Below, piece after piece: positions 5,120 through 10,903 of a stretch of 64,000 nucleotides of DNA. The notes below the pieces were generated by a model, which saw only the letters and a list, made by a program, of their open reading frames with translations, did not search any database and was not told the DNA's origin. The stretch is from Pseudomonadota bacterium. GTDB taxonomy: Bacteria > Pseudomonadota > Gammaproteobacteria > Acidiferrobacterales > Acidiferrobacteraceae. Position 1 is the stretch's first letter. Each line of letters begins with the position of its first letter. A program made the position numbers and the translations under genes. The stretch lies in NCBI GenBank assembly GCA_021816625.1, contig JAKAXM010000010.1, forward strand, positions 1 to 64,000. Direction: 5' to 3'.

Positions 5120-7660
5120 ATGTCTGACTTATCCTCATCCGGTTCTTTGCGCGGCCGGGCCTTGGCGCAGGAGATGCGGCGCCAGCAGGCCATGGCCAAG
5201 CAAGGCGCACAGCAAGGAAAGGCTGCCGCCCGGACAGAGGCGCCTAGGCGCAGCGGGGCCGTCGTGTCTAAGGCACGAGCGGCAGCGCCGATGGCGCCCG
5301 CCGTGTCCGCGCCGCAGAGTCAACCGGCGGCGCAGGCGGCGAAGCCGCGGGGGCGTGAGGCCGCCTTGGCCCGGCGCGCCTTGCGCTGCGCCGGGGCGCA
5401 GTGCTGGGCCGATCCCGCGCAGCGCCAGGGCGCGGGGCGTCCGCGCCCCGCGGCGCCGGCTGTCGCAACGGCAGGCCCGGTCGAAACCGTGTCGGCGCCG
5501 GTCGTGGTCCCGGGGGTCAAGGACAGCCTGATCGATACCGTCTGCGAGATTGCCGAGAAGCAGCCCGAGGTTTTGGCGGGGCGCGATCATTCGGTGCGCC
5601 AGTTGTGCAAGGCACGGCGCCGGTCACTCGCACAGCGGGGACGGGTGGCGCTCAACGTCATGCGCGGCTTGAGCTCGGCGGCGGCGCGGCTGCGTTATCT
5701 GGAGAACGGCAACGCCCACGAGTTCGCCCGTCTTCATCGCCAAGAGGTGGCCAAGCACGGGCGCGGCAGCGCGCAGCCGGCGCGGCCGACCGGACAGCAG
5801 CGGTCCCGCAAGTACCGGGTCGCGCAGAAGGTGGGGATCGGCACGACCCTTGGGGGCAGTGCTGTGAGCGGGACCCTGGTCGATCGGATCCCGGCAATGA
5901 CGGGCGTCGAGGCCGGCAGTTGCCGAACCGTCACGGGTACCGAGTATGTGGGCAGCGAGCAGTATGCGGCCTTCTGTGAGGGGCGTCCGAGCGCGGCTCC
6001 GGCCAAGGTGGGCATCGGCAGCACGGGCCGGCGCATCCCGGTGAGCGGCACCCAGGTGGGGCGTGTCGCGAACGTGACGGGTGACGAGGCGGGCCAGTGC
6101 CGTGGTGTGACCGGAACGGAATATTTGAGCCTCGAGAACTTCACATCGTTTTGTAAGACGGAAGCGCAGCCGCGTCCGGACAAGGTCGTGGTCGGGGTGA
6201 CGGAACGGCGGCATTTGCCGGTCACGGGTAGCGACGAGGCACGCGCCAACCGGACGACCGGGGCGGAGGCCGGAGTCGCGGCCCGGATCACAGGCTCGCA
6301 GTACGCCGATGGCGGGGCGGCGCGCCTGACGATCAATGGGGCCCCCAAGAAGGTCGCGGAGACGCGGACCTTGCGCGGTGGCCCGGTGACGGGGACAGCG
6401 GCCGGAGGTAGCCCGAAGATTACCGGGCTTGAGGCCGGGGAGTGCCGTCCGGTGACGGGTACGGAGTATTTGAGCCAGGAAACGTTCCAGAGTTTGTGTG
6501 GGACGCCGCCTGAGCCTACCCGTCCGGCCAAGGTGGAAGAGAGTGAGACCCGGAAAGGTCAGCGTATCACGGGCAACCTCGTCGATCGCTCGGAGAAGGT
6601 GACGGGTAACGAGCCTGGCTCGTGTCAGCGGGTAACGGGGGCCGGTTATACGAGTCCGCGCGTTTGCGGGGGTGGCGTCGACAAGGTGCAGGGGTCGACC
6701 AACCTGGGCGGACGCGTGGTTACGGGAACGGGGATCGACCGCCTCCCAAAAACGACAGGTGACGAGCGCGGAGGGTGCTTGCCCGTCACCGGGATGGATT
6801 ATTACGGGCGTGAGCACTACGCCCACTGCGCGAGCACCCCGCAGGCGGAGGCGCCCAAGGTGGCGGTGACCCGTACGCCGCGTGGGCAGCTTGTGAGCGG
6901 GCCGTCTTTGGGTCCGGCACCGCGCGTGACCGGCAATGAGGCTGGGTCCGCGCTTGCGATCTCGGGGACCCCGTATCTCGGGGAGGAGCTAAACGTCATG
7001 TCATCAGAGACGGAAAGAGCGAAGACCGGGACAGCCGGCGGTTGCGGCGGCTGTGGTTGCAAGACGCGCATGCAGGAATTGGAGGCGCAGATAAAAGAAT
7101 TGCAGGAGCGCCAGCTGGGTTGGGCGCGCGCCACGCCGGCGCCGCACCTCGCGAGCCAGCGCTTCGTAAGCCCGGTGGCGTCCGCGGCACTGGTGGCCGA
7201 ACCGCCGCCGGCAACGGATTTTAGCGTGATGGCCCCGGCCCGCGAGGGACGCACCCGGGTGACGGGTAATGCGGCCGATTCGGGCCAGAAGATAACGGGA
7301 CCTGTGAACCTGGGGCGGGGCTTGATTACAGGGACCCCGGAGTTCCGGTCGCGGGATGCCGCGCCAGCGCCGGTGGCCGCCGCCGCGCCCGCAGCCGGGC
7401 GCGAGCCGCCCGTGGTCGGGGCCTGGCAGGTGACCGGCGATGACTGGAGCCGCAATCAGCGGGTCACGGGCACCGAGGGCCATTGGGCGCAAGGGCGTAA
7501 CCCGACGCAACGGGGTGTAGCGCGTAACTGCGTGATGTCAGCGGCGGTGAACAAGGGCCAGCCGTTGGCAGCCCCGGTGCCGGAAGGCAAGGTCACCGGC
7601 AGCAGCGGCAACACGCAGAAAGGTTCGGTGGTGACGTACTCCGGAGGGGCGCGGGGATGA
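5120..7660 (+). CDS. csoS2: Carboxysome assembly scaffold CsoS2 (long form)
   Basis: CsoS2 is the intrinsically disordered scaffold that ties RuBisCO to the shell. Three regions are clear. The basic N-terminal part (to about residue 230) has RuBisCO-binding helices such as GRALAQEMRRQQ, AALARRALRCAG, VRQLCKARRRSL and FARLHRQEVAKHG. The middle region holds seven repeats of about 50 residues with paired VTG motifs and Cys residues (about 235-620). The C-terminal region has further VTG motifs and ends with the shell-anchoring tail GKVTGSSGNTQKGSVVTYSG. ATG 5120 is chosen because GAGGGAG sits 6 nt upstream; a TTG at 5099 is in frame but has no such site. Length is 846 residues. A frameshift signal lies in repeat 6. 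Confidence 0.95.
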   Translation: MSDLSSSGSLRGRALAQEMRRQQAMAKQGAQQGKAAARTEAPRRSGAVVSKARAAAPMAPAVSAPQSQPAAQAAKPRGREAALARRALRCAGAQCWADPAQRQGAGRPRPAAPAVATAGPVETVSAPVVVPGVKDSLIDTVCEIAEKQPEVLAGRDHSVRQLCKARRRSLAQRGRVALNVMRGLSSAAARLRYLENGNAHEFARLHRQEVAKHGRGSAQPARPTGQQRSRKYRVAQKVGIGTTLGGSAVSGTLVDRIPAMTGVEAGSCRTVTGTEYVGSEQYAAFCEGRPSAAPAKVGIGSTGRRIPVSGTQVGRVANVTGDEAGQCRGVTGTEYLSLENFTSFCKTEAQPRPDKVVVGVTERRHLPVTGSDEARANRTTGAEAGVAARITGSQYADGGAARLTINGAPKKVAETRTLRGGPVTGTAAGGSPKITGLEAGECRPVTGTEYLSQETFQSLCGTPPEPTRPAKVEESETRKGQRITGNLVDRSEKVTGNEPGSCQRVTGAGYTSPRVCGGGVDKVQGSTNLGGRVVTGTGIDRLPKTTGDERGGCLPVTGMDYYGREHYAHCASTPQAEAPKVAVTRTPRGQLVSGPSLGPAPRVTGNEAGSALAISGTPYLGEELNVMSSETERAKTGTAGGCGGCGCKTRMQELEAQIKELQERQLGWARATPAPHLASQRFVSPVASAALVAEPPPATDFSVMAPAREGRTRVTGNAADSGQKITGPVNLGRGLITGTPEFRSRDAAPAPVAAAAPAAGREPPVVGAWQVTGDDWSRNQRVTGTEGHWAQGRNPTQRGVARNCVMSAAVNKGQPLAAPVPEGKVTGSSGNTQKGSVVTYSGGARG
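6745..6790 (+). promoter_or_regulatory. Probable programmed -1 frameshift element in csoS2
   Basis: The zero-frame codons CTC CCA AAA ACG contain the heptamer C-CCA-AAA (6745-6751), which fits X-XXY-YYZ. Six bases later a 7-bp perfect stem begins: GGTGACG (6758-6764) with CGTCACC (6784-6790). A -1 slip reads AAC GAC AGG and then TGA at 6760-6762. The short product would be about 547 residues and end inside middle repeat 6. Alpha-carboxysomal csoS2 genes are known to make a short CsoS2A and a long CsoS2B by frameshifting. Confidence 0.65.
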
Positions 7661-9772: not shown

Positions 9773-9812
9773 GGCGGGTTTTTGGACAAGGTCCGGATAG
9801 GAGGGACGAGAA

Positions 9813-10109
9813 ATGGCAGATGTAACGGGTATTGCGTTGGGCATGATCGAGACACGTGGCCTCGTGCCGGCCATTGAGGCGGCGGATGCCATGACCAAGG
9901 CGGCGGAAGTGCGCCTGATCGGTCGGCAGTTCGTCGGCGGTGGTTATGTCACGGTTTTGGTGCGTGGTGAGACGGGTGCGGTAAACGCCGCCGTCCGTGC
10001 CGGCGCCGATGCCTGTGAGCGCGTGGGCGACGGGCTCGTCTCGGCGCACATCATCGCGCGGGTACACTCCGAGGTGGAGAACATCCTGCCTAAGGCCCCC
10101 AGCGCCTAA
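9813..10109 (+). CDS. csoS1: Carboxysome shell hexamer protein CsoS1 (copy 1)
   Basis: A 98-residue single BMC-domain protein whose hexamers tile the shell facets. It shows GIALGMIETRGLVPAIEAAD, the pore-side FVGGGY loop and AHIIARVHSEVENILP. AGGAGG lies 8 nt upstream. The coding sequence is base-for-base identical to the next copy at 10150-10446, so which is csoS1C and which csoS1A is only a matter of order (compare csoS1C-csoS1A-csoS1B in Halothiobacillus). Confidence 0.97.
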   Translation: MADVTGIALGMIETRGLVPAIEAADAMTKAAEVRLIGRQFVGGGYVTVLVRGETGAVNAAVRAGADACERVGDGLVSAHIIARVHSEVENILPKAPSA

Positions 10110-10149
10110 ATAGCGCCGGGTCTGGGCTTAATGTAAGGAGATCGAGAAA

Positions 10150-10446
10150 ATGGCAGATGTAACGGGTATTGCGTTGGGCATGATCGAGACACGTGGCCTC
10201 GTGCCGGCCATTGAGGCGGCGGATGCCATGACCAAGGCGGCGGAAGTGCGCCTGATCGGTCGGCAGTTCGTCGGCGGTGGTTATGTCACGGTTTTGGTGC
10301 GTGGTGAGACGGGTGCGGTAAACGCCGCCGTCCGTGCCGGCGCCGATGCCTGTGAGCGCGTGGGCGACGGGCTCGTCTCGGCGCACATCATCGCGCGGGT
10401 ACACTCCGAGGTGGAGAACATCCTGCCTAAGGCCCCCAGCGCCTAA
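10150..10446 (+). CDS. csoS1: Carboxysome shell hexamer protein CsoS1 (copy 2)
   Basis: The protein (98 residues) and the 297-bp coding sequence are both identical to copy 1. It has its own ribosome-binding site (AAGGAG, 9 nt upstream), and the 40-bp intergenic sequence differs from that before copy 1. Identity of third codon positions points to very recent duplication or ongoing gene conversion. Two copies raise gene dosage of the most abundant shell protein. Confidence 0.97.
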   Translation: MADVTGIALGMIETRGLVPAIEAADAMTKAAEVRLIGRQFVGGGYVTVLVRGETGAVNAAVRAGADACERVGDGLVSAHIIARVHSEVENILPKAPSA

Positions 10447-10478
10447 GGGCGATCCGGGTTAAGCGGCGCGGGCGAGGT

Positions 10479-10501
10479 TTGGGCGTGCGCGACACGCCCA
10501 A
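10479..10501 (+). terminator. Intra-operon hairpin between csoS1 copies 2 and 3
   Basis: TTGGGCGTG (10479-10487), loop CGCGA, CACGCCCAA (10493-10501): a perfect 9-bp stem in the 118-bp gap. There is no T-tract, so full termination is unlikely. Protection of the upstream mRNA 3' end or partial attenuation before the minor third shell gene is plausible. Confidence 0.45.
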
Positions 10502-10564
10502 GGCTTCGGATTTCGGGGCGCGGCGGACCTGGTCAATGAATCGACGGATTCGAGGAGAGTAGGG

Positions 10565-10903
10565 ATGGCAGCTCTGACGGGTATTGCGTTGGGCATGATC
10601 GAGACACGTGGCCTCGTGCCGGCCATTGAGGCGGCGGATGCCATGACCAAGGCGGCGGAAGTGCGCCTGATCGGTCGGCAGTTCGTCGGCGGTGGTTATG
10701 TCACGGTTTTGGTGCGTGGTGAGACGGGTGCGGTAAACGCCGCCGTCCGTGCCGGCGCCGATGCCTGTGAGCGCGTGGGCGACGGGCTCGTCTCGGCGCA
10801 CATCATCGCGCGGGTACACTCCGAGGTGGAAAAGATCCTGCCGACCCGGCCGGAAGGCCATGGCGGTGGCAGAGATGGTGACGTGACGGGTAACCTGAGC
10901 TAA
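10565..10903 (+). CDS. csoS1B: Carboxysome shell protein CsoS1B-like, with C-terminal extension
   Basis: A 112-residue BMC-domain shell protein. Residues 4-89 are the same as in the two shorter copies, but the start is MAALTG and the end is extended by a Gly-rich tail (PEGHGGGRDGDVTGNLS). CsoS1B of other alpha-carboxysomes also carries a short C-terminal extension and is a minor shell protein. The tail ends in VTGN, the same motif used repeatedly in CsoS2. GAGGAG lies upstream of the ATG, after a 118-bp gap with a hairpin. Confidence 0.94.
   Translation: MAALTGIALGMIETRGLVPAIEAADAMTKAAEVRLIGRQFVGGGYVTVLVRGETGAVNAAVRAGADACERVGDGLVSAHIIARVHSEVEKILPTRPEGHGGGRDGDVTGNLS

Follow-up and report, generated by a model that had tools for sequence, protein, structure and literature searches.

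A probable programmed -1 ribosomal frameshift element in the carboxysome gene csoS2 of an Acidiferrobacteraceae bacterium, with a likely second RNA helix

The stretch of DNA analyzed in this study, referred to as the window, comprises 64,000 nucleotides of contig JAKAXM010000010.1 from an Acidiferrobacteraceae bacterium. It carries an ordinary alpha-carboxysome operon in which csoS2 is accompanied by cbbL, cbbS, csoSCA, two csoS4 and three csoS1 genes, together with a ferritin-like gene, a ParA-like gene and a pterin dehydratase-like gene, the last slightly below the Pfam cut-off. Two of the csoS1 copies, at 9811-10109 and at 10148-10446, are the same at all 299 nt and the third (10563-10861) is 93% identical; the csoS1 triplet at 9811-10861 suggests recent duplication or gene conversion. 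The csoS2 open reading frame and its translation start with ATG at 5120 and stop with TGA at 7660. The product matches PF12288 (CsoS2_M) in Pfam with 395 bits, and its top match in the Protein Data Bank is CsoS2B of Halothiobacillus neapolitanus (8b12/9ly8). The features discussed below are collected in Table 1.

Table 1. Features of csoS2 and of the putative frameshift element, in window coordinates
Feature	Position	Strand	Basis and remarks
csoS2 (CsoS2B, zero-frame full-length product, 846 aa)	5120..7660	+	ORF, translation, Pfam
Predicted CsoS2A reading, 547 aa, end N-D-R	5120..6762	+	Sequence; H. neapolitanus read likewise gives the published 570 aa
Synonymous-constraint footprint, codons 542-574	6743..6841	+	Strongest of the gene at each window size tested
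Slippery heptamer C-CCA-AAA, P-site CCA, A-site AAA	6745..6751	+	Sequence; kept in relatives
6-nt spacer	6752..6757	+	Codons free to vary among relatives, observed/expected synonymous divergence 0.8-1.2
S1 5' arm GGTGACG	6758..6764	+	Pair counts in relatives, folding
-1 frame stop TGA, within S1 5' arm	6760..6762	+	Sequence; exactly three codons past the slip in 58/58 sites
S2 5' strand GGGTGC, in S1 loop	6773..6778	+	Complementarity; pairing extendable to 6782 in the window species
S1 3' arm CGTCACC	6784..6790	+	Pair counts in relatives, folding
Possible second hairpin GGGCGTG/TACGCCC between S1 and S2	6806..6824	+	Present in roughly half of the genus; not a general feature
S2 3' strand GCACCC (with A6833: AGCACCC), predicted pseudoknot partner of 6773-6778	6834..6839	+	Complementarity

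An earlier note on this DNA had proposed a -1 frameshift site in csoS2, and the coordinates it gave were all recovered in the sequence. The zero-frame codons 543 and 544 are CCA (6746-6748) and AAA (6749-6751), and C6745 ends a CTC codon, which places the heptamer in the correct phase. It is the sole in-phase X-XXA-AAN or X-XXT-TTN of the window gene; the note had likewise seen this heptamer at one place in the gene. In the -1 frame the region reads CCC AAA AAC GAC AGG TGA, with the stop lying inside the downstream stem. The predicted CsoS2A would follow the zero frame to codon 544 (AAA, 6749-6751), which is re-read as AAA at 6748-6750, and would continue with AAC GAC AGG (6751-6759) to the TGA. 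The 543 residues, the lysine and N-D-R add up to 547 aa, and the proposed sizes of 846 and 547 aa thus agree with the ORF and the -1 reading. Because CTC (7/41 Leu), CCA (2/60 Pro) and AAA (4/29 Lys) are minor codons of the window csoS2, C-CCA-AAA at a given L-P-K would arise by random synonymous choice with a chance of about 0.08% (product of codon frequencies) and is not regarded as accidental.

In H. neapolitanus, according to PMC5009743, CsoS2B has 869 aa and CsoS2A 570 aa, three residues of the latter being encoded in the -1 frame. The two CsoS2 proteins are roughly equimolar in this model. The frameshift site was proven by Chaijarasphong et al. 2016, J Mol Biol 428:153 (as cited in PMC5009743, PMC12312397 and PMC12918739); it is described as about 50% efficient and located in repeat R6 (PMC5009743, PMC12918739, PMC11365436). 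The genome G927 encodes the PDB stretch of H. neapolitanus CsoS2B at 100% identity, and its csoS2 contains C-CCA-AAG, the spacer ATGTCC, GGTGACG...CGTCACC and a -1 tail of D-V-R, with products of 869 and 570 aa. P543-K544 of the window aligns with P566-K567 of H. neapolitanus in DHAPKMSGDERGG, residue for residue, which puts the site in the sixth middle-region repeat (R6), the repeat assigned to it beforehand.

The earlier note had named conservation among relatives as a check of the heptamer, and the result was positive. In a first alignment of 16 csoS2 genes, comprising the window, 12 other members of the genus, one gene of the same family (L015), a relative found on a genome contig (L031) and a further genus member (L011, genome G008), C-CCA-AAA is kept in 15. 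Wider searches recovered C-CCA-AAR at the same place in 58 genes from eight GTDB families, 43 with AAA and 15 with AAG, and the -1 stop follows precisely three codons on in every one of these. The site is not universal, since only 12 of 72 csoS2-bearing genomes carry it in a sample spread evenly over the class. This is in line with the patchy species distribution in a 2016 prediction, in which 79 of 162 species are predicted to have the site and others are not (PMC5009743). One gene, L185 of G800, has an in-frame TAA soon after an intact heptamer and stem, which would reflect an assembly error or else a broken csoS2. A C-CCA-AAA found elsewhere in the csoS2 gene L045 has no stem and was treated as chance.

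The host genome encodes tRNA-Pro(UGG), tRNA-Lys(UUU) and tRNA-Lys(CUU). Among the genomes listed out of 64, with kinship ignored, genes with C-CCA-AAA often occur with tRNA-Lys(CUU) and those with C-CCA-AAG often without a detected CUU. Exceptions occur both ways, such as AAG with CUU in G874, G880 and G893. Given these exceptions and shared ancestry, a link between AAG heptamers and absence of tRNA-Lys(CUU) was rejected as a trend at most. The five consecutive A residues at 6748-6752 also raise the question whether a short form could arise by transcriptional slippage on the A run and not by ribosomal slippage. Five A, however, are short for RNA polymerase slippage, and the 15 homologous sites with CCCAAAG, that of H. 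neapolitanus included, have three A only. The conserved RNA helices downstream, described below, likewise point to the ribosome, and a transcriptional origin is considered extremely unlikely.

Codons 542-574 show the lowest synonymous divergence in csoS2 at windows of 5, 9, 15, 21 and 25 codons, and their constraint was never matched in 20,000 column permutations. Within this stretch the spacer codons 545-546 and the first loop codons 550-551 evolve at near-normal synonymous rates, and this speaks against the constraint being due to a recent local recombination event. The constraint continues for about 50 nt beyond the S1 hairpin, with GCACCC (6834-6839) at its end. The extent proposed earlier for the element, 6745-6790, is therefore correct for the parts it names and too short for the whole, because the constraint and a likely second helix reach about 6841.

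The 7-bp stem S1 was found as proposed, 6 nt past the heptamer, GGTGACG (6758-6764) pairing with CGTCACC (6784-6790). The earlier note had cautioned that the arms are repeat codons. They do encode the TGDE and VTG motifs, and on this basis the whole pattern could be incidental to the CsoS2 repeat code, with P-K, G-D-E and V-T-G kept for the protein and heptamer and stem arising as a by-product. However, all seven S1 pairs are complete at 57 of 57 sites, compared with 4 of 198 other repeats of those genes, and the heptamer is never used at the other P-[KR]-x-[TSH]-G sites in csoS2 repeats. Codon choice is fixed beyond what the amino acids demand, and the rare stems elsewhere never come with a heptamer. 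In addition, the downstream hexamer of the second helix lies in another reading frame and encodes different residues in 7 of 47 matches. While the caution about the arms is correct as to what they encode, the repeat code does not explain the stem, and a by-product is very improbable. As S1 is nearly invariant among the genes, in pair counts as in the alignment, its support is conserved codon choice and not covariation. Compared with dinucleotide shuffles, the fold of the 48-nt hairpin does not stand out (z -1.4).

The constraint past S1 coincides with a complementarity between the S1 loop and the downstream sequence, termed S2, whose 5' strand consists of the codons GGG TGC. An exact reverse complement of a gene's own loop hexamer occurs within the next 69 nt in 47 of 56 genes, as against 13.5 ± 3.0 in synonymous shuffles; this exact-hexamer statistic was picked after the pattern had been seen in about 25 sequences and was later applied to 56. 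With one gene per sequence cluster the exact match is found in 15 of 20 (4.6 expected), and by site in 46 of 57 compared with 6 of 198 control repeats of those genes. The standard match is absent from L002, L003 and L075. Some variants are matched on both sides, namely GTGTGC/GCACAC in L177, GAGTGC/GCACTC in L181 and GGGCGC/GCGCCC in L178. In a structure-blind MAFFT alignment 90% of S2 cells pair, with five two-sided changes, three S2 pairs show changes of this kind, and the whole S1 plus S2 structure was equaled by 0 of 500 shuffles; slid registers on the same alignment also yield some two-sided changes. A permutation limited to variant loop sequences gave P 0.11, so covariation alone is no proof of S2. 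Duplex energy between loop and downstream region was not significant against synonymous shuffles (mean z -0.25). Exact hexamer complementarity was used in its place because GC-rich strands find some imperfect duplex in any case. The G927 gene of H. neapolitanus has the same loop/downstream pair as the window. From this comparison of sequences the S2 helix is likely to be real.

Whether S2 would form together with S1, as a pseudoknot, or would replace it as an alternative hairpin was considered on folding and conservation. Nested folding favors S1 or S2 depending on length, and the minimum-energy fold of 108 nt pairs S2 without S1, as an alternative hairpin would have it, but the folding tool used cannot score pseudoknots. 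Against mutual exclusion, S1 and S2 are conserved together, and loop lengths of 8 nt, 3-5 nt and about 40 nt in the window species permit both helices at once. An alternative hairpin is accordingly rated unlikely and a pseudoknot with S1 the more probable form. No Rfam family matches 6600-7000. No description of a csoS2 pseudoknot was found in the open-access papers covered, where a 2016 review was the sole match for csoS2 with pseudoknot; the primary 2016 paper lay outside the scope of the search. The H. neapolitanus stimulator has been reviewed as a complex 3' stem-loop, with a pseudoknot unmentioned in the portion of the review text available (PMC5009743).

A genus member, L011 (G008), has lost the element. 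It has CCG-CAA in place of the heptamer, its S1 stem lacks the outermost pair and no S2 match is left, while its csoS2 is still full length (835 aa; the G008 genome is 85% complete). Joint decay is as expected if heptamer, S1 and S2 work together, and L011 is a candidate for a natural single-form csoS2. The same gene bears on the idea that the window element is a real relic, inherited intact and yielding little or no CsoS2A under host conditions. Loss is evidently tolerated, given L011 and the short CsoS2 form of H. neapolitanus, which is reported in PMC11365436 to be non-essential. The window copy, on the other hand, is intact in all parts and under strong synonymous constraint, which makes a relic improbable.

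Other CsoS2 clades differ at this place. Within the genus of H. neapolitanus, four genes (L220-L223, from G930, G933, G934 and G935) encode a shorter CsoS2, with an open frame of about 625 aa, that is devoid of the P-K slip site. A further four genes (L042, L044, L045 and L052, from G101, G353, G239 and G187) belong to a clade without the R6 site and carry A-AAT-TTT in phase where the last repeat ends, with a -1 stop three codons on and a predicted hairpin directly 3'. The region corresponds to codons 529-545 of L042, and these four genes show zero synonymous differences over nine codons, the lowest window of their gene. The heptamer is missing at that place in most relatives of the clade. A-AAT-TTT is thus a possible independent frameshift site. 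The combined proposal, that the csoS2 stimulator of the window species and H. neapolitanus is a conserved pseudoknot (GGGTGC with GCACCC about 44-70 nt on) and not a plain stem-loop, and that a separate clade evolved an A-AAT-TTT slip site of its own at the close of the final repeat, so that a short CsoS2 without C-terminal domain arose at least twice, has in our estimate about even odds.

Taken together, 6743-6841 is best explained as an ortholog of the proven H. neapolitanus csoS2 site, acting in programmed -1 ribosomal frameshifting, with a probability of roughly 0.93. The frameshift reading of the earlier note is upheld by homology to that site in position and sequence and by the conservation found. 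The downstream RNA structure would hold ribosomes that have CCA in their P site and AAA in their A site, and some of these would slip back by one base, presumably by tandem slippage of tRNA-Pro from CCA to CCC and of tRNA-Lys from AAA to AAA. Slipped ribosomes would append Asn-Asp-Arg before terminating at TGA 6760. Their product, CsoS2A, would keep the Rubisco-binding N-terminal part and the first of the repeats but lack the C-terminal shell-anchoring domain, and unslipped ribosomes would produce full-length CsoS2B. The stimulator would comprise the 7-bp S1 and very probably S2 (S1 loop with 6834-6839), that is, a pseudoknot. What the sequences show directly is the site with its phase and tail length, its conservation and constraint, the S1 stem, and an S2 complementarity beyond the codon null; that ribosomes slip in the window organism, how often they do so and which shape the stimulator takes in three dimensions is inferred. 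Frameshifting of this kind is already known; the window adds its signal in a further lineage, and the predicted pseudoknot is a refinement.

The ratio of CsoS2A to CsoS2B bears on Rubisco packing and alpha-carboxysome shape, as stated in PMC12312397 and PMC12918739; in H. neapolitanus the former of these sources places the short form in Rubisco packing and the long form at the shell (PMC12312397). Alpha-carboxysomes are being transferred to plants and yeast. With a signal of about 100 nt, reaching to 6841 and probably including a pseudoknot, constructs cut or recoded just past the hairpin may no longer yield the short form. The loss in L011 and the CsoS2 clades without the site offer ready comparisons on the purpose of the short form.

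Among known systems, insertion sequences of the IS3 family use a hairpin loop or internal loop that pairs downstream and stimulates bacterial -1 frameshifting. This resembles what is predicted for csoS2; the genes are different, and the outcome in csoS2 is a two-product scaffold protein, not a transposase fusion. The dnaX gene of E. coli has the heptamer A-AAA-AAG, and its shift product ends soon past the slip. Like dnaX, csoS2 combines a slippery heptamer and a 3' stem-loop, so that one gene yields both a longer and a shorter product, a comparison drawn in PMC5009743. The upstream Shine-Dalgarno stimulator used by dnaX is reported absent for csoS2 in the same source (PMC5009743). Gene and heptamer of dnaX are also unrelated, and a loop-to-downstream helix is predicted in the window csoS2. 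The H. neapolitanus site shares with the window the csoS2 gene, repeat R6, the P-K slip codons, a three-residue -1 tail, the S1 sequence and the S2 complementarity, whereas the two differ in heptamer (C-CCA-AAA in the window, C-CCA-AAG in H. neapolitanus), tail (N-D-R and D-V-R) and product sizes (846/547 and 869/570).
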